DNA of 29,417 nucleotides from a virus, in the IMG/VR virus record IMGVR_UViG_3300027759_000311, positions 1 to 29,417 of that record, one strand, 5' to 3'. Positions 15,223 to 26,831 of this stretch are shown in pieces (the first letter of the stretch is position 1; every line of letters begins with the position of its first letter). The position numbers were made by a program, and so were the translations under genes. A model generated the notes under the pieces. The model was given only the letters and a program-made list of their open reading frames with translations. It searched no databases and was not told the origin of the DNA.

Positions 15223-15702
15223 ATGAGCCAAATTACTACACTTGCCGATCTAGTGGCAAACATTACTACTACTACCTATAACACCCAAAGTGCTAGAGAT
15301 GGTACTTCGGTTACCACTCTGCGTATCAACCCTACTAGCTATGCTTTGGCTGGTTCAACTACGGCCACAGCAGGCACAGCCACAACAGTCTCTACTGCCA
15401 TAGCAGCTGACACAACATCAACCCTGGCCACATATACCATAAACGGTACGGCTGTGGTGGTAGTACAAGGACCGCAGGGTCAACAGGGTGCGCAGGGTCT
15501 ACCTGGGCCTCAGGGTGCTACAGGAGCCCCTGGGAGTGATGCTTCCAGCATCTTGCCCGCAGAGGATGGCCCTGCTGGTGCGGTATTGGCCACTGATGGC
15601 AACGGTAACCTAGCTTGGTCTGAAGTTAACTTAGACTTCACAGCACAGTTAAACAAGTTTAAGAAAGAATCATTAATTAACAATATCATATTCGGAGCTT
15701 AA
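15223..15702 (+). CDS. Virion-type protein with collagen-like repeat
   Basis: Encodes 159 aa. Residues 1-80 are Thr/Ala-rich and probably beta-structured; residues 83-106 form a collagen-like Gly-x-y run (GPQGQQGAQGLPGPQ and on), which would build a trimeric stalk; the end (LDFTAQLNKFKKESLINNII) is helical. Collagen-like stretches are common in phage tail-fibre and capsid-decoration proteins. It opens the plus-strand late operon 15223-17794 from a TAAATA box. Confidence 0.82.
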   Translation: MSQITTLADLVANITTTTYNTQSARDGTSVTTLRINPTSYALAGSTTATAGTATTVSTAIAADTTSTLATYTINGTAVVVVQGPQGQQGAQGLPGPQGATGAPGSDASSILPAEDGPAGAVLATDGNGNLAWSEVNLDFTAQLNKFKKESLINNIIFGA

Positions 15703-15705
15703 ATA
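15700..15705 (+). promoter_or_regulatory. TAAATA late-promoter-like box overlapping a stop codon
   Basis: The TAA stop of the preceding gene is the first half of TAAATA; the box ends 4 nt before the ATG at 15710. Confidence 0.6.
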
Positions 15706-16099: not shown

Positions 16100-16335
16100 T
16101 GACACAACAACTACAAGAAATAGCCCTGAGCAACGAACCCTGGGCTGCTCAACGTGCTCAGTATGCCCTACAGATCTGTGAAGCAGTCAACAAGGGTGAG
16201 ATGACAGCAGACGAAGGCCAAGAGCTCCTACGTGATCTAGTGCGTATGGATAGGCTGGACTCTGAGTCTAGTGATATGAGATTAAAGGCAGCACTGGTCA
16301 GTGCTGTCTACATAGCAGCGAACCTACCAATATGA
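16099..16335 (+). CDS. Small hypothetical late protein
   Basis: Encodes 78 aa, helical: MTQQLQEIALSNEPWAAQRA then ALQICEAVNKGEMTADEGQE. The region around GEMTADEGQELLRDLVRMDR is typical of short structural or chaperone-like phage proteins, but the function is not known to me. Its ATG shares a base with the upstream stop (TAATG), and the next ATG overlaps its stop (ATGA). Confidence 0.82.
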   Translation: MTQQLQEIALSNEPWAAQRAQYALQICEAVNKGEMTADEGQELLRDLVRMDRLDSESSDMRLKAALVSAVYIAANLPI

Positions 16336-17228
16336 AAATAAAAGAACTAATACAAGAAGCCCCAGCAGCTGGACCCGAAGGTGCAGAACAACGTATGTTG
16401 GACCGTATGGGGGCACGTTTTGGCCTACCCCCAGGGTCTAGTCAAGAACAGGTACAGGCTGCACAACAGGCTCACTTAGACAAGAACGATCCAGCTGCCG
16501 CAGCACAATACAAACAGAATATGTCTAACATAGATGCTGGGGGCACACAGGCTGACAACAAACCTGTACAACTGGCACCTAAGGCAGCACCTGCTGCTCC
16601 TGCCGCTGCTAATCCAGATGCCGCAGGCGGCCAAGCTGCTGCTAAAGCAAACAAGAGCCCAATCGCTATTATGTTAGCACAGCCGACTATCGGTAACAAT
16701 CAGGCTATGCTAGATGTTATTGCACCCACAGTAGGCCTACCAGTTGGGTCAAGTGCTGCTGATATTCTAGCAGCCGATGATGCTAGGAATGCCAAAGCGG
16801 GTGGTAAGTATGCTCCAGCCACCCCAGCCCCTGCAACAGAAAGCGTAGGCCGTGCAACAGATTCAAAAGGACGTACACAACAAGATTGGCTACGTCTAGT
16901 TAAAGCAAAGTTCCCAGATGCAAAGATTATGCAGGCAAAAATGATAGATGGTCCTATTCGTGTCACTTTACCTGATGGTAGAACACTATCCTGGAACAAA
17001 GCAGTATCCGAAAGCGTAGTAGACGAAGAGCCAGCAAGCCGTTCACTATGTCAAAGCGGCAAGCCAGACAGTGCTCTAGGTGCTAGCCAATTGAGCAGTT
17101 GCAAGAGTCAGGGCTATCGCAGCCGTGATGGTGGCAAGAGTCACAAAGTGGGTCACGAACGAGTTAAGGTTCGTGGCAAGAAAATCAAAGGCAAAAAGTA
17201 CGGCGGTCCATTACCTGATTGGAGTTAA
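16332..17228 (+). CDS. Candidate internal head protein with capsid-targeting-like N-terminus
   Basis: Encodes 298 aa. MKIKELIQE|AP resembles the T4 capsid-targeting peptide (IPIII begins MKTYQEFIAE|A) and ends in IQE, fitting the (L/I)xE rule of the T4 prohead protease. Residues 22-46 and 126-150 are an internal duplication (MLD-x5-x-x-GLP-x-GSS), each followed by Ala/Pro-rich linkers. Residues 170-230 form a small folded part (QQDWLRLVKAKFPDAKIMQA). The last 60 residues are basic with LCQSGKPDSALGASQLSSCK and end GGPLPDW, a tail I recall from other phage proteins. Role inferred: packaged or assembly protein. Confidence 0.75.
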   Translation: MKIKELIQEAPAAGPEGAEQRMLDRMGARFGLPPGSSQEQVQAAQQAHLDKNDPAAAAQYKQNMSNIDAGGTQADNKPVQLAPKAAPAAPAAANPDAAGGQAAAKANKSPIAIMLAQPTIGNNQAMLDVIAPTVGLPVGSSAADILAADDARNAKAGGKYAPATPAPATESVGRATDSKGRTQQDWLRLVKAKFPDAKIMQAKMIDGPIRVTLPDGRTLSWNKAVSESVVDEEPASRSLCQSGKPDSALGASQLSSCKSQGYRSRDGGKSHKVGHERVKVRGKKIKGKKYGGPLPDWS

Positions 17229-17233
17229 GTAAT

Positions 17234-17794
17234 ATGGTAATTCTAGAAAGCGGCGATCTATTAATAGCACCTCCAAAGATGCCTGATCCAAGATTTCGTA
17301 AGACTGTGTTGATGATGACACACGAACACGAAGTTGGCACTATCGCATTATGTGTTAATAAGCCTACCCCACATACCCTACAGGATCTAGTTAAAGAACT
17401 AGACATTGACATTGATGTCAGTCTAAACTTTCCCTTATATTGGGGTGGCCCTATCAGTCACGGCACAGTATGGATGCTGCATTCTAGTGAATGGCGCTGT
17501 GAGGCCACTATTGAGATCTCCACAGATTGGGCTATGACATCCAATGAAGAAATGTTCCACAGTCTAGCAGATGGCGATTGCCCTATTAACTTCCGTATGA
17601 TGTTTGGCTATTGCTCCTGGGCACCTGGGCAGCTGGAAGCAGAGCTACGTGGTACTCCACCCTGGCATCATCAGAGCAGCTGGCTAACGGCCAAGAACCC
17701 AGGGCCTGAGTGGCTGTTGGAACAACCAGAAGAATTACTATGGGAACGTTCGACTGAACTCTGTGCGCATCAAGCAGTGGCTAGTTGGATTTAA
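17234..17794 (+). CDS. YqgE/AlgH family protein (DUF179, UPF0301)
   Basis: Encodes 186 aa. SGDLLIAPPKMPDPRFRKTV, then HEHEVGTIALCVNKPT, PLYWGGPI and FGYCSWAPGQLEAEL are hallmark segments of the YqgE/AlgH family. Cellular AlgH is linked to alginate regulation in Pseudomonas, but the biochemical role is unsettled. The length matches bacterial members. The ATG at 17234 is preferred over a TTG at 17219; GGAG within the end of the upstream gene is its ribosome site. Its end overlaps the minus-strand gene at 17781 by 14 nt. Last gene of the late operon. Confidence 0.92.
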   Translation: MVILESGDLLIAPPKMPDPRFRKTVLMMTHEHEVGTIALCVNKPTPHTLQDLVKELDIDIDVSLNFPLYWGGPISHGTVWMLHSSEWRCEATIEISTDWAMTSNEEMFHSLADGDCPINFRMMFGYCSWAPGQLEAELRGTPPWHHQSSWLTAKNPGPEWLLEQPEELLWERSTELCAHQAVASWI

Positions 17795-18029
17795 GCCCGT
17801 CTATCACCATACGTTTGGCACGTTCATCTAATTCAAGCTCATCGCTGGCCAGCATCATTTGACTGTTGGCCTGCATAAACTCTAGCAGTGCTGCTTGACC
17901 CTCTTCGGTCCAATGATTATAGGTATGGTTAACGGTACTGGTATAATAGAAGCGTTCGTTACGCATCAACTCCAGTAGACCCCCGTAGATCACATCCTTG
18001 ACAGCCTGCTTTTTCAATGAGTATTTCAA
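17781..18029 (-). CDS. Small hypothetical protein, TTG start
   Basis: Encodes 82 aa (KYSLKKQAVKDVIYGGLLEL then MRNERFYYTSTVNHTY). The start is a TTG that overlaps the upstream stop (TTGA); no clear Shine-Dalgarno, so coupling is likely. Basic N-terminus, helical body. Last gene of the eight-gene operon 20818-17781. Family not recognised. Confidence 0.72.
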   Translation of the reverse strand: MKYSLKKQAVKDVIYGGLLELMRNERFYYTSTVNHTYNHWTEEGQAALLEFMQANSQMMLASDELELDERAKRMVIDGLKSN

Positions 18030-18385
18030 TGGATTACTGCCTTGGTGGTATTGCGATCACTGAAGACCTTGGCATAGTGGTTCTCACGAACAAAGTCAGC
18101 CAAGCCCTGAGGGTCACGTTCAGCCCACCCACGTATGAGTTCACTATCAACGTTAGCGTCTGTTGACTGTATGTAGATTTCATAGTGGCGCTGTGGGTTA
18201 TATCTAGCCCGTAGTTCCATTGCAAAGATCTGCTGAGCCAGAGGGTTCTTAGAAGCTTCTTTACCCTTGAGTATTTCCATTAGATTAGTCTTAGACCAAT
18301 TGTCAGGGTGCAGGGCTGTGATGTCCTGTACACATTCAAAACCAGTGTTGTCCCAGCTTAAGAGAAAATAACGTTCTTTGTTCAT
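18026..18385 (-). CDS. Hypothetical protein
   Basis: Encodes 119 aa beginning MNKERYFLLSWDNTGFECVQ, soluble alpha/beta with SKTNLMEILKGKEASKNPLA and HYEIYIQSTD. Both start and stop overlap the neighbouring genes by 4 nt. Function not recognised; expression is tied to the ligase operon. Confidence 0.78.
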   Translation of the reverse strand: MNKERYFLLSWDNTGFECVQDITALHPDNWSKTNLMEILKGKEASKNPLAQQIFAMELRARYNPQRHYEIYIQSTDANVDSELIRGWAERDPQGLADFVRENHYAKVFSDRNTTKAVIH

Positions 18386-18621
18386 TTGCGCAGTCCTTTA
18401 ATGTCTTTATATGTCACACGGATAATGTTATGTAATACAGAATCAATCTTTATGGGTAGGTCTAGGTGTACACTGACCATAGGGCCCTCAGCTTCATTAC
18501 GCATATTGTCTGTATAGGCCGTACCTACAAAAGGTATCTTCATATAAGTGCCTTCGACCCTGTCCCCAAAACTGTACTTGGGCTTGGGACGGTTAGCTTC
18601 AAAATATTCAGCTAGGGTCAT
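18382..18621 (-). CDS. Small hypothetical beta-rich protein
   Basis: Encodes 79 aa. MTLAEYFEANRPKPKYSFGD then RVEGTYMKIPFVGTAY suggests a small barrel: YSFGDRVEG...PFVGTA...VSVHLDLPI...IIRVTY resembles short SH3-like or hypothetical barrel proteins of phages. ATGA overlaps on both sides. Confidence 0.78.
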   Translation of the reverse strand: MTLAEYFEANRPKPKYSFGDRVEGTYMKIPFVGTAYTDNMRNEAEGPMVSVHLDLPIKIDSVLHNIIRVTYKDIKGLRK

Positions 18622-18815
18622 TTTTGAAACCTCGGCATAACATTGTGTCCGGTATATTGAAACGAGTCCAGCATAGGTAGCAAGTCTGATAACTTATCAG
18701 CAGGATGTCGTTGTATCACGGGATGACCATCACCATCAGTCAGCATAAAGTACAGTTTTTCTGTGCCTTCTTCGATTTGATATTCGAAGATATATTGTAA
18801 GTCTTCAAGAGTCAT
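18618..18815 (-). CDS. Small hypothetical protein
   Basis: Encodes 65 aa: MTLEDLQYIFEYQIEEGTEK then LYFMLTDGDGHPVIQRHPAD. The N-terminus (MTLEDLQ) parallels the next gene's MTLAEYF. ATGA overlaps on both sides. Function not recognised. Confidence 0.75.
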   Translation of the reverse strand: MTLEDLQYIFEYQIEEGTEKLYFMLTDGDGHPVIQRHPADKLSDLLPMLDSFQYTGHNVMPRFQK

Positions 18816-18937
18816 CGTGATCCAATCCTACGCCATACAGTTTCAAATGTAGTTGGCTTTAACATAACTTCCCAACCCTTGGGAATATGCTCAGGGAAGA
18901 TACTGGTCTTACCCGTGCTGTGTTTGTACAGTTTCAT
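18812..18937 (-). CDS. Tiny hypothetical protein (41 aa)
   Basis: A 41-aa gene, MKLYKHSTGKTSIFPEHIPK then GWEVMLKPTTFETVWRRIGS, basic and aromatic. It is short, but it fills exactly the gap between two neighbours with ATGA overlaps at both ends, which strongly supports it. Function unknown. Confidence 0.78.
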   Translation of the reverse strand: MKLYKHSTGKTSIFPEHIPKGWEVMLKPTTFETVWRRIGSR

Positions 18938-19167
18938 TCTTCAACTCCAAAATGTTCTTTAACAAACAATTTAATTTCCTGAATCGGTAACTCGTCATCG
19001 TCACCGTATCGTTTTATCATACTATCAATTAAATCTTGAACAATCAACTGGGCGAACTTTTCTTCAAACTTTTCACTATTGACTGATAACACGATATTTG
19101 ATACAGGATGCCGTGTAGTAGCAAACTCCCTAGCCTGTTCAGCAAGTTCTCGAATTCGTTCGTTCAA
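18934..19167 (-). CDS. Small helical hypothetical protein, TTG start
   Basis: Encodes 77 aa starting (TTG)NERIRELAEQAREFATT, then KFEEKFAQLIVQDLIDSMIK. The NERIRELAEQA...EKFAELIV pattern is very common among uncharacterised proteins of T4-like phages. The TTG start overlaps the ligase stop (TTGA) and has AGGAGAAAA at good spacing. Function unknown. Confidence 0.82.
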   Translation of the reverse strand: MNERIRELAEQAREFATTRHPVSNIVLSVNSEKFEEKFAQLIVQDLIDSMIKRYGDDDELPIQEIKLFVKEHFGVEE

Positions 19168-20480
19168 ATCTTTTCTCCTGCCATAAAGCCACGGAATCGC
19201 ATAAAGCGTGGAAAGCGTAGGCTGTATGTACCATCCTGATTCTGGGTAATAGCATCAGCACGTACTTCAACTACCTGCCCTAGCACAGTGGTACGACCAT
19301 CCCAATACTCGCTACGGTTACCGTCAGTGAAGCCTGAGCCCACGTTAACTTTAATTGTTTTGCCGTCATCAACACCCTCACAGACGAACGCACCCAATTT
19401 GCCCACGTTACGGCCTGTGCCTTCTTCAACGTCCTTGATCTCCAAAGAGACTTCAATAAAGGGCTTCTGTTTGAGCCAGCTGGTACTCCGCTTGCATTCG
19501 TATTTGGCATCAGGGTCTTTGATCATAATGCCTTCAAAGCCAGCGGCTACCATTTCTTTGTTGTAGTCTTTGTATTCGATCTCGCCCAAGAACTCATCTA
19601 GGTTAACTTCCTTCTGCGGAATGATATCCACACAGTTAGTCTGTTCAAAGATTGGAGCAAATGAACGCAGTAGATTAGAGCGTCGACGCTGACCCATCAC
19701 ACTCTGACCGCTTTTGAATTCTACCAGTGGAACAGCATCGAACAACATAAGACGGGCATCCTGTGCCTGTACATCACCCTTGCGATGAACTTGTGTCATC
19801 AGCTCTTGGAAGCTGTTAGATACAACTTCACCGTCTAATACATAACTGCGAGCCAGCTCATCAATTTGTGCTAGGATAGCATCTGTGATATGGCTGAAGT
19901 TTTCTAGTACTTTACCATTACGTGTGTACATTGTAACAGTACGGCTTTCAAAGTCTACAACTGTGACAGCACGAACACCGTCCAATTTAGGCTCTAAGAG
20001 TTTCTTGCCTGTGATCTTCTTCTCGTGATTGGCTCCATCGTGCGCCAGCATACATTCAAATACGGGCACACTGTATTCGGACTTCTTGGTCTTCTTGGCC
20101 ACAGTGTTCACAGTCTTTTCTGAAACACCGCAACGTAGATCTTTAATAAGGATACGGCGATACCAGTCGTTCCATTGCGCCTTTGTGGCAATGTCCATTG
20201 CCAATTTAATAGCATCACGGGCATCGTGTCCTGTGATCGTACGTTTACGCAGAGCTTCTGCTAGGTCTTTAAAGTTAGTCCAGCTTAGGCCTTGCCCATC
20301 AGCTTCGCTAACAGGTACCTGCTTAACACCAAATGTGTACAGCTTGTCCAAACACATAGCCACACCCTCAAAGAACTCTGTGAGTCCTGCTTCCATAGCT
20401 GACTCTAGGATGGCTTCTTTGGCTAGACGACTGTTGTCTGCTTCTAGTTCTTGGATGATTGTTTCTGGTTGCTTACGCAT
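19164..20480 (-). CDS. ATP-dependent DNA ligase
   Basis: Encodes 438 aa. The adenylation motif is EPKLDGVR with Lys165 as the nucleophile; later motifs are VLDGEVVS (about 210-217), FEGIMIKDPDAKY (motif IV/V) and WLKQKP (motif V). A helical N-terminal domain precedes the core and an OB domain follows (GKLGAFVCEG...KVNVGSGF). Size and layout match T4 gp30-type ligases (about 490 aa), slightly shorter. It seals nicks in replication and repair. Its ATG overlaps the upstream stop by one base; GGAGACAGC is the ribosome site. Confidence 0.95.
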   Translation of the reverse strand: MRKQPETIIQELEADNSRLAKEAILESAMEAGLTEFFEGVAMCLDKLYTFGVKQVPVSEADGQGLSWTNFKDLAEALRKRTITGHDARDAIKLAMDIATKAQWNDWYRRILIKDLRCGVSEKTVNTVAKKTKKSEYSVPVFECMLAHDGANHEKKITGKKLLEPKLDGVRAVTVVDFESRTVTMYTRNGKVLENFSHITDAILAQIDELARSYVLDGEVVSNSFQELMTQVHRKGDVQAQDARLMLFDAVPLVEFKSGQSVMGQRRRSNLLRSFAPIFEQTNCVDIIPQKEVNLDEFLGEIEYKDYNKEMVAAGFEGIMIKDPDAKYECKRSTSWLKQKPFIEVSLEIKDVEEGTGRNVGKLGAFVCEGVDDGKTIKVNVGSGFTDGNRSEYWDGRTTVLGQVVEVRADAITQNQDGTYSLRFPRFMRFRGFMAGEKI

Positions 20481-20818
20481 TATGCTGTCTCCATTTCGTT
20501 GATGTGTTTACAAGCGCCACGGAACGTAAAGCCCGGGCAGGTACAGGTATTGGCTTCTAGGTCTACACTATATGTATTGCCCTTGCTGCCTTGCACTGTT
20601 TTAATATGAGCCAATGGCTTTGCTGTTTGGAAAGGGTTTGGTGTTACTTCTACAAACTTACGACCACGCTTGTCGAATCCTTTAATTGGATTCTTAAAGT
20701 AAAATGGTGTAGTGTCGCCTTGCTTAATATAAGCAAGAAGGTTGTTACCGTCTATTAGATAGACGTGATTAGGCGCTTTGTGATTACCCCAATCTGTAGT
20801 TTCTTGTAGAGCCTGCAT
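20480..20818 (-). CDS. SWIM zinc-finger protein
   Basis: Encodes 112 aa. C92-x-C94-x8-C103-x-H105 in TCTCPGFTFRGACKHI is a SWIM zinc finger (CxCxnCxH), which binds DNA or proteins. The N-terminal part is beta-rich (VYLIDGNNLLAYIKQG). Leads the operon into DNA ligase with a 1-nt overlap, so a DNA repair or replication role is likely. Ribosome site AAAGGCAGCG; promoter at 20850-20878. Confidence 0.85.
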   Translation of the reverse strand: MQALQETTDWGNHKAPNHVYLIDGNNLLAYIKQGDTTPFYFKNPIKGFDKRGRKFVEVTPNPFQTAKPLAHIKTVQGSKGNTYSVDLEANTCTCPGFTFRGACKHINEMETA

Positions 20819-20849
20819 CGCTGCCTTTCATTGCCTGTTTAATAGTTAT

Positions 20850-20878
20850 ATTATACAGTAAATCTAGATAGATGTCAA
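20850..20878 (-). promoter_or_regulatory. Sigma70-type promoter for the ligase operon
   Basis: TTGACA, 17 nt, TATAAT on the minus strand. Its -35 overlaps the stop codon (20875-20877) of the preceding gene. Confidence 0.87.
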
Positions 20879-22329
20879 GTGTTTTTGATGTGTGGCAAAG
20901 ATGCCACAGATTGTACTGCTGGTTTATTTGCTTCGGTTTCTGCTTTTTGTACTAGCTCTAATAGATCATCTAACTCAAAGAAGAAAGCGATCCTCTCTGC
21001 TTTTGAAACCATCAGCCTAATATGGAAAAGAGACTTTCCAGAATTACGATCTCTAATATACAGATATGATACCCCACGTTCTGTAACTTTTGGATCACAA
21101 TACAGATCTACACTTTGTGCCAGATGTTGAATCTTTCTTGGATTTAACTTATTATAAGTACCGTTGGCATTGAATTCTACATAGATCAATGACTCTTCTT
21201 TAGTCATTGCTTTAGTTAGATTACGTAAAAAATCAGAAACGAATGCTGCTTCGCCTTGATCATTCTTAGCAAAGTATTTTGCTTCTAGATTCTTTCCTGC
21301 TATTTCTAGTATTTTCTTGCTGGCCTTTACCCTAGCCATATGCTCTTTTGGAGTTTGTACCTTGTTACCAATTTTGCCTCGATATTTTGATTGAGTTATG
21401 GCAGCAATGGCCTGCGCATCGTCGAGACCTAAAATATGGAAAAACTTGTTTATACCGATATCGTTAGTTCCTGGTGCTTGATCAAGGGTAGCACCCTTCC
21501 CGGCTTTTAGACTCATCGAAAGATTCTTTAATGTTCTTTCTTGTTTTGTTCCAGGATCAATATAGGTAGTTTTAACATCGGTTTTATTACCTTCTCCTCC
21601 CACAACAGATATGTTTAGACTATCTATCCTATTATTAGTTGAAAAGAATTTGTTGTATCTAGATAGGTCGTGCTCGGAGTTAACATATTTTAACACAGCA
21701 TTAACTATACCTTGTAACTGAGTATCTTCGGAACTCATTTTAAGAGCTCTTAAGAATGGCCCTTCGTTGGCACTTACTGTTAAATGAACTGTGTCTCGAA
21801 CCTTGTTACCTACATCGGATACTTCTTTAGACATCTGCCCTTGATATATCTCTACTTTTGATTTTACGCTAGATTTTTCTAGGTTAATGTGACTCTTAAG
21901 AGCATTGAGGGTGGCCATCAGTTGATCAGCGGTAATAGCGTTCCCTGTACGATCAGTGAGTTTTGTAAAGATAGCCGCAGCCTTCAGTACTTCAACAGCA
22001 GGTCCGATATTAGCTTTTTCTATATTATGTGCGCCACGACCACCGAATTCACCAGTCTTAGCAATTCTTGAAAGCTCAACGCCGCCAATAGACTTTGGAA
22101 GATTGGCTATTGCTGTAGACTTACGTGTCTCTCCTTGATCATTGTAAAACTGATAAAAGTTTTTGAGTACCGCTAGTTCTTTTCTATTTGGTTTTAATTT
22201 AGTTGGTTGTCGATCAACTATGAAATCGTCATTGTTTTTTAGTTTAGATAGCAGAGCATCCAGACGAGCTTTTTTATAAAAATCGCCTGGAGATAGGTTT
22301 TTTTCTATTAAAAACTCAAATGCTCTCAT
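20875..22329 (-). CDS. Large candidate packaged protein with capsid-targeting-like N-terminus
   Basis: Encodes 484 aa from an ATG at 22329; a longer frame to 22431 would overlap the upstream gene and lose the promoter box. MRAFEFLIE|KN parallels T4 capsid-targeting peptides and ends in LIE, a fit to the (L/I)xE cleavage rule. Residues 90-125 (KTGEFGGRGAHNIEKANIGP then AVEVLKAAAIF) and 250-280 (D251, then NLSMSLKAGKG with K275) could be a degenerate PD-(D/E)XK nuclease core with E113, D251 and K275. Nuclease assignment is low-confidence inference. A perfect hairpin TGTGGCA/TGCCACA lies in the last codons. A TAAATA box is 5 nt before ATG. Confidence 0.8.
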   Translation of the reverse strand: MRAFEFLIEKNLSPGDFYKKARLDALLSKLKNNDDFIVDRQPTKLKPNRKELAVLKNFYQFYNDQGETRKSTAIANLPKSIGGVELSRIAKTGEFGGRGAHNIEKANIGPAVEVLKAAAIFTKLTDRTGNAITADQLMATLNALKSHINLEKSSVKSKVEIYQGQMSKEVSDVGNKVRDTVHLTVSANEGPFLRALKMSSEDTQLQGIVNAVLKYVNSEHDLSRYNKFFSTNNRIDSLNISVVGGEGNKTDVKTTYIDPGTKQERTLKNLSMSLKAGKGATLDQAPGTNDIGINKFFHILGLDDAQAIAAITQSKYRGKIGNKVQTPKEHMARVKASKKILEIAGKNLEAKYFAKNDQGEAAFVSDFLRNLTKAMTKEESLIYVEFNANGTYNKLNPRKIQHLAQSVDLYCDPKVTERGVSYLYIRDRNSGKSLFHIRLMVSKAERIAFFFELDDLLELVQKAETEANKPAVQSVASLPHIKNT

Positions 22330-22334
22330 AGCTA

Positions 22335-22340
22335 TATTTA
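22335..22340 (-). promoter_or_regulatory. TAAATA late-promoter-like box
   Basis: GTTAAATATAGCTATG on the minus strand; the box ends 5 nt before the ATG at 22329. Confidence 0.6.
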
Positions 22341-22348
22341 ACTTATTC

Positions 22349-24007
22349 TCAGTTAAATGAGTAGTGGAAGCCTGGTGCGTTTGCGTTAACTGTATCAGTA
22401 CCTGCGTGATATTGATACCCAAATGTTGCACTACTAAACGGTTGTTTTTTAATTTTAATAATTCCCTGAGGAGTTATCTCAATATGAGCTACAGTAGCAT
22501 CTTTCTTGCTCATAATAGCCTTTAGAGTGTCCTGCATTTCTTTAGACGATTCTTCATTGTCAACAACAAAGTTTTTAAAACCCATACCTAACATATAAGT
22601 CAACTGTCTGCTGGCAGCACGAACAAAGTTAGCATCAAACTTTTTCTTACCGGCTGCTCTGCTAGATTCTTCTGCGTTTGCCTCACCATTTGCCTGAACG
22701 TATTTTGTCCAATCTTTAGGAAGGCCGACTGGCTTAACCTTAGGATTCTTTTTAGTACCTCCCATACGCTGGGCTGCTGTACTTGCAGGATATACTGTTT
22801 CTAGATATCGTTTATATAAATCTGCTGTGCCGTCTACTGATAACTTTGATACTAACTGTTGTACAGCAGTTTCAAGTGCAGCATAGGTCATCGGTTCAGT
22901 GCCCAATATTTCGTTTAACTTTATGGCTTCTGGTACTTGTGCTTTCTGTGCCGCACGTATTAGTTTGTCAGTAGTCCTTCCGTCGTCACCAACGAGATCT
23001 TTTAGAATAGCAAATGTTGTGCTTTCTTTGTAATTGGGATCTTGTTGCATTTCTTGTTCGTAGGTAGCGATAAGATCCTTAATTGCGGCAAAACTATTTC
23101 CACTTCCTCCGAGGCTCTTGACAGCTACAGGTTTTCCACCAACGTGTACATCAATCAGGGGTGAATTAGATTCTCTTGAAAACTGTATAATATCACTGTC
23201 TGACTCCATTGCAAGTGGTGTTAGTATTTCACCAAAGTCCTGGGCTATGTAATTTAATCTAGAAGAAATATGGGTCATTAGCTCTGCATCAACTTTTGGT
23301 CTAGCTCCAACAGCTACATCTACTAGCTGAGATAATGCAGATGCAAGTTGTGGATCTTGCCCAAACAATGACGGAATCTTTGCTTTAACATCTGCAGCCA
23401 ATGCTTGTCTAGTCATTTCAGAACCTAATAGACCAAACTTCTCTGGACGCAACATCTGGATACCAATTTGGGCCCCTTCGTCGTCCTTGGCTCGCTTACC
23501 TGCAATAACAATCGTGTACACAATATTATTTTCAGTGTAAGAATAGATATCACCTGTATATGTGCCTGATACCTTTTGTATAGGTTTGTTTGTGAGTGTC
23601 AACTGAATATTGTTATTAGCTAATAAATCAATTACATTTTGTTTTGGTAACGCATTCAATATTCGTATGCTGGGAATCGCTTTGGCAGCGTCTGCATCTT
23701 CAACATCATTTCTAACATTGACGACTGGAAACATCGGTTTGAGTATGCTTATTAATTTTGCTCTTAGTGTTTCTTGTTGAGCTTTATTAGCATAGGTAAC
23801 ATTATCAAACACAAAAGGTCCTGTGCCCTTAACTACCCTTTTAGGTTTGGCCAGAACTTTAGCTGCTGGTTGTTCGTCTGCAGGATGCGCTGCTTTTACA
23901 GCCGCAGGATCGGGCTGTCCAGCAGGAGCAGCAACTCTAGGACCCTGGGTCTGTAGAGCTGCTGTTTCATCTTCTGTGAGTTTGAATTCGTAATAACGCA
24001 TCTTCAT
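22349..24007 (-). CDS. Large candidate packaged protein with capsid-targeting-like N-terminus
   Basis: Encodes 552 aa from ATG 24007; a second ATG at 24001 gives MRYYEFKLTE|DE, which resembles T4 capsid-targeting peptides and ends in LTE. After a Pro/Ala/Lys-rich linker (to about 60), residues 60-230 form a folded domain. Residues 253-310 (IAQDFGEILTPLAM, then PLIDVHVGGKPVAVKSLGG) hold E260, D286 and K297 with the order of a PD-(D/E)XK nuclease core, although the acidic residue before K is missing. Nuclease function is a guess. It lies just upstream of the other large candidate, 22329-20875. Confidence 0.8.
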   Translation of the reverse strand: MKMRYYEFKLTEDETAALQTQGPRVAAPAGQPDPAAVKAAHPADEQPAAKVLAKPKRVVKGTGPFVFDNVTYANKAQQETLRAKLISILKPMFPVVNVRNDVEDADAAKAIPSIRILNALPKQNVIDLLANNNIQLTLTNKPIQKVSGTYTGDIYSYTENNIVYTIVIAGKRAKDDEGAQIGIQMLRPEKFGLLGSEMTRQALAADVKAKIPSLFGQDPQLASALSQLVDVAVGARPKVDAELMTHISSRLNYIAQDFGEILTPLAMESDSDIIQFSRESNSPLIDVHVGGKPVAVKSLGGSGNSFAAIKDLIATYEQEMQQDPNYKESTTFAILKDLVGDDGRTTDKLIRAAQKAQVPEAIKLNEILGTEPMTYAALETAVQQLVSKLSVDGTADLYKRYLETVYPASTAAQRMGGTKKNPKVKPVGLPKDWTKYVQANGEANAEESSRAAGKKKFDANFVRAASRQLTYMLGMGFKNFVVDNEESSKEMQDTLKAIMSKKDATVAHIEITPQGIIKIKKQPFSSATFGYQYHAGTDTVNANAPGFHYSFN

Positions 24008-24008
24008 A

Positions 24009-24014
24009 TATTTA
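24009..24014 (-). promoter_or_regulatory. TAAATA late-promoter-like box inside a sigma70-like promoter
   Basis: The last T of TATAAT starts TAAATA (TATAATAAATATATG). The box ends 7 nt before the second ATG (24001) of the gene. Confidence 0.5.
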
Positions 24015-24042
24015 TTATAACGCAGTTTGGAGACTGCGTCAA
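24014..24042 (-). promoter_or_regulatory. Sigma70-type promoter with palindromic spacer
   Basis: TTGACG, 17 nt, TATAAT on the minus strand. The spacer holds ACGCAGT-N6-ACTGCGT (24020-24039), a perfect 7-bp inverted repeat placed like a repressor operator. Confidence 0.7.
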
Positions 24043-24548
24043 CCTAAAAAGTCACTCCAGCTGGGATGTGCTAGGCCGTAGCCCAAAGACTTGCGTTTGT
24101 TTGCCAATTCCCAAAAGTCGGGCTTGTAAGGCAAAGTTTTTGGCTTCATCTTTGTTTTGTCCGCTTTTAGATAGTTACAGCGTTTGCAGGCTGTGGTTAG
24201 GTTCGCCCAGGTGCTTTTGCCGCCTTGGCTAACTGGCTGTATGTGATCCAATGTGGCATTATCAGTGCCACAATGTATGCCGCAGTATTGACAGAGATAG
24301 CGATCACGTAAGAATACATTACGCTTGGTCAAGCGAACATAGCTTTTGGTCTTTTGATACTCATTAAGCATAATGATCGCGGGCACTTTGGTTTCCCAAC
24401 GTGCGGACCTTACGATCCAATCGTCATACCAAGAGATCACACGGACCTTGTCTAGGACCATATATCTGATGGCTTCTTGCCAATCCACTGTGCTTAAAGG
24501 TAGCAGGCTCACTGGCTGTGCGTCTGCGTTCAAAACTAGAGTTGTCAT
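24039..24548 (-). CDS. HNH endonuclease
   Basis: Encodes 169 aa. CQYCG (C86, C89), LDHIQPVSQGG (D101-H102), WANL (N116) and ACKRCNYLKAD (C121, C124, N125) form a complete HNH nuclease with a zinc ribbon. The N-terminal part (VLNADAQPVSLLPLSTVDWQ, then WYDDWIVRS) is the conserved leader domain of a common phage and bacterial HNH family. Free-standing HNH genes are often homing endonucleases; no interrupted gene or intron is seen nearby. Weak ribosome site (AAAGAAGTG); TAAATA box 20-25 nt upstream and a TTGCGG/TATAAT promoter. Confidence 0.93.
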   Translation of the reverse strand: MTTLVLNADAQPVSLLPLSTVDWQEAIRYMVLDKVRVISWYDDWIVRSARWETKVPAIIMLNEYQKTKSYVRLTKRNVFLRDRYLCQYCGIHCGTDNATLDHIQPVSQGGKSTWANLTTACKRCNYLKADKTKMKPKTLPYKPDFWELANKRKSLGYGLAHPSWSDFLG

Positions 24549-25289: not shown

Positions 25290-25684
25290 TGCAAGAACTA
25301 GGAAGAATTGAAAAGGGTTGGGGATTCGAAATAGTCTGGACCAACAATGAACAGTACTGCGGCAAGCTGTTAGTGTTCAACAAGCCAGGCGCAAAGACTT
25401 CTATGATCTATCACAGGGATCGTAAAAAGAGTTGGTTTGTTAACGAAGGACGCTTTAAGTTAGTCTACTGTAATACCAAGACAGGTGAGTATCACGAAGC
25501 TAATCTAGAAACAGGTGCAGCCTTTGAAGTCAATGCTCTAGTTCCTCATCAACTGGAAAGCCTAGAACCTGACTCTATTATATTTGAAGTGTCAACTCCG
25601 GATGACGGAGAAGATCGATATCGTATCAGTCCCGGTGATACTCAAACACTTCTTTCAGCGCAACAACAAGATCCTCAATCATAG
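25289..25684 (+). CDS. Cupin-fold protein
   Basis: Encodes 131 aa. [56 protein letters not shown] and [10 protein letters not shown] read as a beta-barrel of the type found in sugar-phosphate isomerase-like cupins (the GWG-E-x-x-W opening and the PHQL metal motif). H42 and H91-type ligands are plausible. The substrate is unknown; in phages such cupins have been linked to sugar or nucleotide-sugar metabolism. The ATG shares a base with the clpP stop; its end overlaps the 5-aminolevulinate synthase gene by 59 nt on the other strand. Confidence 0.85.
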
Positions 25685-26831
25685 CATCTGTATGGAACGG
25701 CGATGGCGCAAACCTTAGTCGTTCTGTTCCTACATCAACTGTGGGATAGTTAATTGGCTGTACATAGATACTGTGTTCGTGTAACAGTCTATCACTCATT
25801 GCTTTACACTTCTTAGCATCCCCTACAAGTACAGGAACAATGTGACTGGTTGAACATTCCATAACTTGGATGCCAGCTGCGTTTAATCTATGCTTTAGTT
25901 TGCGAGCACGTTCTTGATGCTTCACACGTACTTCATTGTGATCCTTAAGATACTTGACAGCAGCCAGCGCACCACTACAGGATACTGGGCTCATACTTGT
26001 TGTGAATATAAATCCTGCTGCCATTGAACGAATGGCATCGATGACGTCACTATCGGCAGCTATATAGCCACCTTGGACCCCATAGGCTTTCCCTAATGTA
26101 CCATTGACTATGTCAATACGGGATTCTAGCCCAAGCTCTTCAACCTTGCCACCACCGTGGACACCATAGAGCCCTACTGCGTGAACCTCATCGATGTATG
26201 TCATTGCGCCGTGCTTGTCAGCAAGGTCACAAATTTCTTTAATCTTTCCTACGTCCCCGTCCATTGAATACACTGATTCAAATACAATGCAGGGTATGTG
26301 TCCAGTTAACTGTGCGTTAACCAGTTTGTCTTCTAGATCTTGTAGATCGTTATGCTTGAATATCTGCTTGGCGGCTTTACTGTGACTGATACCAACAATG
26401 ATCGAGTTATGATTGTTTTCATCGCTGATAAACTGTATGTTTGGTATGATCTTTGCCAGTGCGATCAAGCTCCACTCGTTAGCCACATAAGCAGATGAGA
26501 ACAACAGAGCTTTGGCCTTATTGTGCAGTGTGGCCAGCTCGTGCTCCAGGGCCACGTGATAGTGACTGGTTCCGCCTATGTTGCGTGTGCCACCCGAGCC
26601 CGACCCTGTATGGTCCAGAGCTGTGTGCATAGCATCTAGTACAACCTTGTGCTGGCCCATACCTAGATAGTCGTTTGAACACCAGTTTACGATGTTCTTG
26701 ATGTTGTAGGGCCCGTACCAAATGGCTGTGGGAAACTTACCTGCTTCTCGTACAATGTCGTTAAAAACACGGTATTTGCCGTTGTCTTTCATCGTCTGTA
26801 GTAGTTCTGTAAAGGGCTTTTTGTTGATCAT
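25626..26831 (-). CDS. hemA: 5-aminolevulinate synthase
   Basis: Encodes 401 aa, full length for the bacterial enzyme. It condenses glycine with succinyl-CoA to 5-aminolevulinate, the first step of heme and other tetrapyrroles by the Shemin route. [41 protein letters not shown] and NGTLGKAYG (PLP lysine K248) are specific to this enzyme among alpha-oxoamine synthases; BioF, KBL and serine palmitoyltransferase differ at GGTRNI. There is no Shine-Dalgarno; a TAAATA box ends 8 nt before ATG, suggesting late leaderless expression. The bacterial genes are mostly alphaproteobacterial. Confidence 0.95.

Follow-up and report, generated by a model that had tools for sequence, protein, structure and literature searches.

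In phage T4, the internal head proteins IPI, IPII and IPIII carry a short N-terminal capsid-targeting sequence (MKTYQEFIAE↓A, the arrow marking the cleavage site) in front of unrelated mature parts. In IPIII, 10 residues suffice, residues 4/7 serving in targeting and residues 8/10 in processing; in T4, a D at the last position blocks cutting but not targeting (PMC9026906). The known roles of injected head proteins are anti-restriction or anti-defence, as for IPI (PMC3012670), IPIII (PMC9391042) and, in phage P1, DarB (PMC9024508). A different use of packaging is known from the chloroviruses, which package restriction enzymes but not their methyltransferases (PMC7019647).

Examination of a 29,417-nt fragment of an uncultured giant T4-superfamily phage (IMG/VR record IMGVR_UViG_3300027759_000311; hereafter, the window) revealed three proteins that begin in a similar manner: protein A (16332-17228, + strand, 298 aa; MKIKELIQE↓AP), protein B (20875-22329, − strand, 484 aa; MRAFEFLIE↓KN) and protein C (22349-24001, − strand, 550 aa; MRYYEFKLTE↓DE). 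The initial annotation claimed that these are T4-like targeting peptides, that their proteins are packaged and possibly injected, and that together they form a new cargo set. Our analyses support this interpretation, although the novelty holds for the proteins and not for the targeting principle, which is that of T4; and the annotation missed that the family of protein C usually sits beside a DNA methyltransferase.

A recurrent N-terminal tag

In the window and eleven related contigs, the criterion implicit in the initial annotation (M[KR] followed by (L/I)xE with the E at position 9 or 10) was satisfied at 64 of 3039 start-proximal methionines but at only 14 of 8230 internal ones (p = 3e-24). 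A stricter motif, which was shaped after seeing the hits, occurred at 49 of 2824 start methionines and 1 of 8230 internal ones (shuffle mean 0.5), and was distributed among 15 families that are unrelated by homology of residues 13 onward. As a positive control, a slightly widened motif applied to T4 recovered only IPII, IPIII and gp61.1, and none of 829 internal methionines, although it missed IPI. Despite the shortness and loose definition of the motif, an origin by chance is very unlikely. Not every look-alike qualifies: a fourth candidate in the window (11242, − strand; MRYYDTLLE↓TD) is not supported, since its homologues do not keep the spacing and it lacks a late box, and a DNA ligase (19164, − strand; MRKQPETIIQE) was likewise set aside.

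The tagged families include LysM+GH19 endolysin-like proteins, DUF6267 proteins, a cytidylyltransferase with a looser form of the motif, and one with an HELNH metallopeptidase-like motif. One family of the relatives starts MKTFKEYLAE↓S, which is nearly identical to the T4 sequence. The usual consensus here is, however, a 9-mer, M[KR]xxE[FIL][IL]xE; and the cargo is larger than that of T4 (about 300-550 aa), includes apparent enzymes, and belongs to at least a dozen families instead of a few.

Processing by a T4-type mechanism requires a prohead protease. Although none was found within the 29-kb fragment, which also lacks capsid genes, nine of the ten largest relatives encode a gp21-type protease (Peptidase_S77; PF03420), and gp23 was found in eight of nine tested; the tail sheath family PF04984 was not detected in the relatives. 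The gp23 of relatives has KYL(A/S)E↓SATAGATSAGN at the place of T4's FLTE↓AEIGG, and small tagged proteins read MKIKEILE↓SATAGATSAGS, i.e., the same junction.

Conservation and gene context of the three proteins

The tag of protein A (16332-16358, + strand), with a predicted cut after E9, precedes a Pro/Ala-rich middle and a conserved, basic, Cys-containing C-terminal region of about 80 aa. This C-terminal region is 68-94% identical in 22 of 35 relatives, but has no match among isolated phages. All 20 relatives examined start M[RK]I.[ED] or M[RK]IFE, though the middle differs or is absent, and [LIV]xE ending at residue 9 is kept in 16 of the 20, the other four lacking the E. Protein A lies within a run of overlapping genes (15710-16099-16335-17228), and a TAAATA late-type box (15700-15705, + strand) is situated 4 nt before the first gene of this run (15710).

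The evidence is thinnest for the tag of protein B (22303-22329, − strand; predicted cut after E9), which rests on one sequence. Behind it lie about 100 aa and then a domain distantly related to phrog_33928 (2.4e-10) and to the cyanophage protein Syn19_172; homologues in Syn19, Syn2 and S-RIM8 are 29-33% identical over about 140 aa, but these lack the tag. Near-identical starts (MRAFEFL.E) do occur on unrelated proteins of four of the related contigs (G009, G015, G019 and G033). The longest open reading frame for B begins at a GTG (22431) inside gene C; but because a TAAATA box (22335-22340, − strand) lies 5 nt before the ATG at 22329, the latter start is favoured. The AlphaFold model of B was unusable (pLDDT 45.5), and B and C are not detectably homologous (hhalign probability 0.5).

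Single-sequence scans found no close relatives of B or C, and alignments were needed; these yielded 50 relatives of protein C in IMG/VR. Its tag (23972-24001, − strand; predicted cut after E10) is followed by a disordered linker (to about residue 55) and two or more folded domains (AlphaFold pLDDT 82.4, pTM 0.78). Of 33 distinct family members, 24 have [LIMVF]xE with the E at positions 7-13, against 7.8% in linker windows, and the tag is kept down to about 30% identity, although some homologues (MRFFEIQD and MRFNEIKNR) lack the E. In both A and C, the tag is conserved while the sequence behind it changes. An in-frame ATG lies 6 nt upstream of the start of C (24007), but since a TAAATA box (24009-24014, − strand) lies 7 nt before 24001, and relatives mostly show a spacing of 4-8 nt, the start at 24001 is favoured. 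Overlapping this late box is a sigma70-like promoter, identified by eye (24014-24042, − strand; TTGACG-17-TATAAT; the only copy in the window, 0.05 expected), the spacer of which lies within a perfect 7-bp inverted repeat (24020-24039) that is operator-like. Directly upstream of C is an HNH endonuclease gene (24039-24548, − strand; PF01844, 9e-15), a neighbour that recurs at several C homologues.

Taken together, these observations suggest that A, B and C are internal head proteins, in which a 9-10 residue peptide, M[K/R]xx[E/D][hydrophobic]..(L/I)xE, docks each protein on the prohead core, after which a gp21-type protease cuts behind the E and the mature protein leaves with the DNA at infection. 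The tag itself is real, is shared by many unrelated proteins and is kept under selection in the A and C families. In the absence of mass spectrometry for this phage or any close relative, packaging and cleavage of these three proteins are inferred, as is their injection, and we assign this reading a probability of about 0.77. An alternative is that the tagged proteins are prohead core components that are cut up or leave the head during maturation, like T4 gp67/gp68, and so are not cargo. The substrates of gp21 do include core proteins (PMC9026906), and some tagged families lie near the head genes (cluster 0, about 7-9 kb upstream of gp21). But A, B and C do not lie beside head genes, tagged proteins elsewhere include enzymes, and a tagged cyanophage cytidylyltransferase was recovered in purified virions (PMC3037559), making this alternative unlikely.

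A possible role for protein C

The gene context of the C family offers a clue to its function. In 20 of 31 distinct loci, a DNA methyltransferase (PF01555) lies directly downstream, and an unrelated, D12-type methyltransferase (PF02086) adjoins the homologue in Atu_ph07; however, the remaining 11 loci and the window itself lack the adjacent methyltransferase. The family also contains the invariant residues DFGE258...D284V...K295xLxGSGxS, whose E/D/K pattern occurs in a helix-strand-strand-strand-helix order. It is therefore plausible, though still tentative, that C is a restriction-type endonuclease: the methyltransferase would mark phage DNA early, and the nuclease would be made late, packed, and on entry attack unmarked host or rival DNA. 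The E/D/K reading rests on conservation and order only, and no activity is known. Structural searches with Foldseek and VIA gave no convincing nuclease match (best Foldseek match in the PDB, E 0.13), residues 55-168 only weakly resembled nucleotidyltransferases (Z about 7), C belongs to no Pfam family, and profile searches against PDB sequences, Pfam and PADLOC returned nothing credible.

Another possibility, to which we give only slightly less weight, is that C (and perhaps B) is an injected anti-restriction protein, like T4 IPI or P1 DarB, that does not cut DNA, the neighbouring methyltransferase being simply a second anti-restriction measure. The known roles of injected head proteins, the failure to detect a nuclease fold and the lack of a methyltransferase beside C in the window favour this view, whereas the invariant E/D/K pattern suggests an enzyme, and directly adjacent methyltransferases of two unrelated families better fit a nuclease-methyltransferase pairing. 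It is also conceivable, but unlikely, that C, the methyltransferase and perhaps the HNH gene constitute a selfish restriction-modification or homing cassette, whose tag only marks its use of phage late expression. The HNH gene beside C in several loci and the patchy distribution of C (2 of 35 VWA-selected relatives) accord with such a cassette; but no relative of C was found among 84,980 bacterial and archaeal species genomes, in a pattern-limited search, and the tag is retained among divergent members of the family.

Comparison with known packaged proteins

The cyanophage cytidylyltransferase T4-GC190 (Syn19_174, SSM1_190) provides a link between such a tag and the virion: the S-SM1 protein starts MKKFSAFLNE↓A, and its cluster was detected in S-SM1 virions (PMC3037559). 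It has not been shown to be homologous to A, B or C, but in Syn19 it is encoded two genes after a B-family homologue. P1 DarB is similarly a large head protein that is targeted by an N-terminal signal and is believed to enter the cell (PMC9024508), although P1 belongs to a different phage lineage and its signal shows no consensus among Dar proteins.

Relative to T4 itself, the present findings extend the head-loading code from a few small proteins to at least a dozen protein families in uncultured giant phages, and give a sequence rule for listing likely injected effectors in uncultured genomes. The resemblance to the chloroviruses (PMC7019647) is that, in the C family, a nuclease candidate is usually encoded next to a DNA methyltransferase, and only the nuclease candidate carries the packaging tag; it differs in occurring in a bacteriophage and in involving an N-terminal head tag. 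If C is indeed a packaged restriction enzyme with a methyltransferase partner, which at present is no more than a tentative proposal, giant T4-superfamily phages would share with algal viruses a way of using restriction-modification as a weapon, in which host or rival DNA is attacked the moment that phage DNA enters.

Genomic context and enrichment of the N-terminal tag

The 29,417-base IMG/VR virus record encodes a MoxR-type ATPase with a VWA/metallopeptidase protein, an ATP-dependent DNA ligase, ClpP, AlgH and, near ClpP, an aminotransferase class I/II protein (25626-26831, minus strand) that resembles 5-aminolevulinate synthase and is possibly a host-metabolism gene. These genes fit a giant myovirus of the T4 superfamily. 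The VWA protein has 486 relatives in IMG/VR, the best of which is about 80% identical, and we read eleven related contigs (38-353 kb) in full.

The initial annotation had described T4-like capsid-targeting peptides ending in (L/I)xE at the N-termini of three proteins, which we refer to as A, B and C, and this observation holds. To ask whether such peptides arise by chance, we called genes with a simple ORF caller and compared methionines near the start with internal ones. The criterion implied by the initial annotation (M[KR] plus (L/I)xE with the E at residue 9 or 10) is met at 64 of 3039 start-proximal and at 14 of 8230 internal methionines, and a stricter motif is met at 49 of 2824 against 1 of 8230, with 0.5 expected from shuffles. 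Although the strict motif, unlike the original criterion, was shaped after seeing the data, the two agree. The strict hits fall in 15 families that are unrelated beyond residue 12. In T4, a slightly widened motif finds IPII, IPIII and gp61.1 and nothing internal, but it misses IPI. Tagged proteins in the related contigs (G030:28254, G030:30223, G009:9314 and G018:36675) include a LysM+GH19 endolysin-like protein, one with an HELNH metallopeptidase-like motif, and DUF6267 (KWDG motif) and DUF6321 proteins, and several share small basic Cys-containing modules.

Conservation of the tag, and the processing machinery in relatives

The tag is kept where the neighboring sequence changes. Members of family A share a C-terminal 80 aa domain, and in front of it the relatives have different middles or none; yet all 20 start M[RK]I with an acidic residue at position 5, and 16 keep [LIV]xE ending at residue 9. 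Family C (50 relatives, down to about 30% identity) has unalignable linkers after the tag, yet 24 of 33 distinct members have [LIMVF]xE with the E at 7-13, against 7.8% in linker windows. Because these sequences are related, a nominal p-value for this difference would be too small, but the contrast is large. B is a single case, in that its distant cyanophage relatives lack the tag.

Nine of the ten relatives of 119 kb or more carry Peptidase_S77, the T4 gp21 family; the exception, contig G019, also lacks a gp23 match, so its record probably misses that region. Eight of nine relatives tested carry gp23. The relatives' gp23 reads ...TRKYL(A/S)E followed by SATAGATSAGNVATL, where T4 gp23 reads ...SFLTE followed by AEIGG...GQTSGAVTQ. 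Small tagged proteins (81-87 aa) of three relatives (G018:202505, G025:14207 and G030:31018) copy the mature N-terminus of gp23 after the tag, reading, for example, MKIKEILE followed by SATAGATSAGSIATV, i.e., the same junction behind a targeting peptide. This is indirect support for cutting after the E of the tag. T4 gp61.1 (18966-19130; MKTFKEFIKE...ENISIGTTSGAVV) looks like a parallel to T4 gp23.

Late-type boxes and evidence from virions of other phages

A TAAATA box, the core of the T4 and cyanophage late promoter (NATAAATA in S-PM2; PMC2984593), peaks sharply 4-5 nt before start codons in these phages (46 and 73 cases, against about 2 per position at 9-16 nt). C has the box at 7 nt, B has it at 5 nt, and the gene run containing A starts 4 nt after one. 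Tagged genes carry it within 2-20 nt somewhat more often than do others (11/49 vs. 202/1842; p = 0.017). In roughly 190 genes of the window (24014, 22340, 15700, 15213, 26851, 14272, 13392 and 2082) and the related contigs G002-G033, the box lies only 3-8 nt before the ATG, and if transcription starts as in T4, these late mRNAs would be leaderless or nearly so. Directly before gene C there is also a perfect 7-bp inverted repeat (24020-24039) at the spacer of a sigma70-like promoter, which is possibly an operator.

Experimental evidence bearing on packaging comes from the cyanophage cytidylyltransferase T4-GC190, which starts MKKFSAFLNE followed by AE in S-SM1 and Syn19 and was identified in purified S-SM1 virions (PMC3037559); its giant-phage counterpart starts MKLLELFE followed by Q. 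In T4, the first ten residues of IPIII suffice for packaging, and residues 8 and 10 set processing (PMC9026906). Packaging and cleavage are likely for A and C and probable for B, and injection, which the initial annotation had considered possible, is inferred from the T4 precedent. Whereas the principle is known, neither the size of the tagged set nor the methyltransferase-linked cargo was found in the literature that we could search.

A possible role for protein C

In 20 of 31 distinct loci with enough sequence, the C gene is followed at once, on the same strand, by a DNA methyltransferase (PF01555), and such genes are rare in these genomes (0-1 per contig). In Atu_ph07, the C homologue directly follows an unrelated D12-type methyltransferase. 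Most of these methyltransferase genes have a sigma70-like -10 box just upstream, whereas most C genes have the late box. C also has invariant E258, D284 and K295 in an order compatible with PD-(D/E)XK nucleases. That C is a packaged restriction-type endonuclease is a tentative reading and is not proved: the fold search was inconclusive, and the window itself has no methyltransferase near C, where gene B stands instead. The basis for this reading is an analogy to the chloroviruses, which package restriction enzymes but not their methyltransferases, and in which host DNA breaks down within minutes (PMC7019647).
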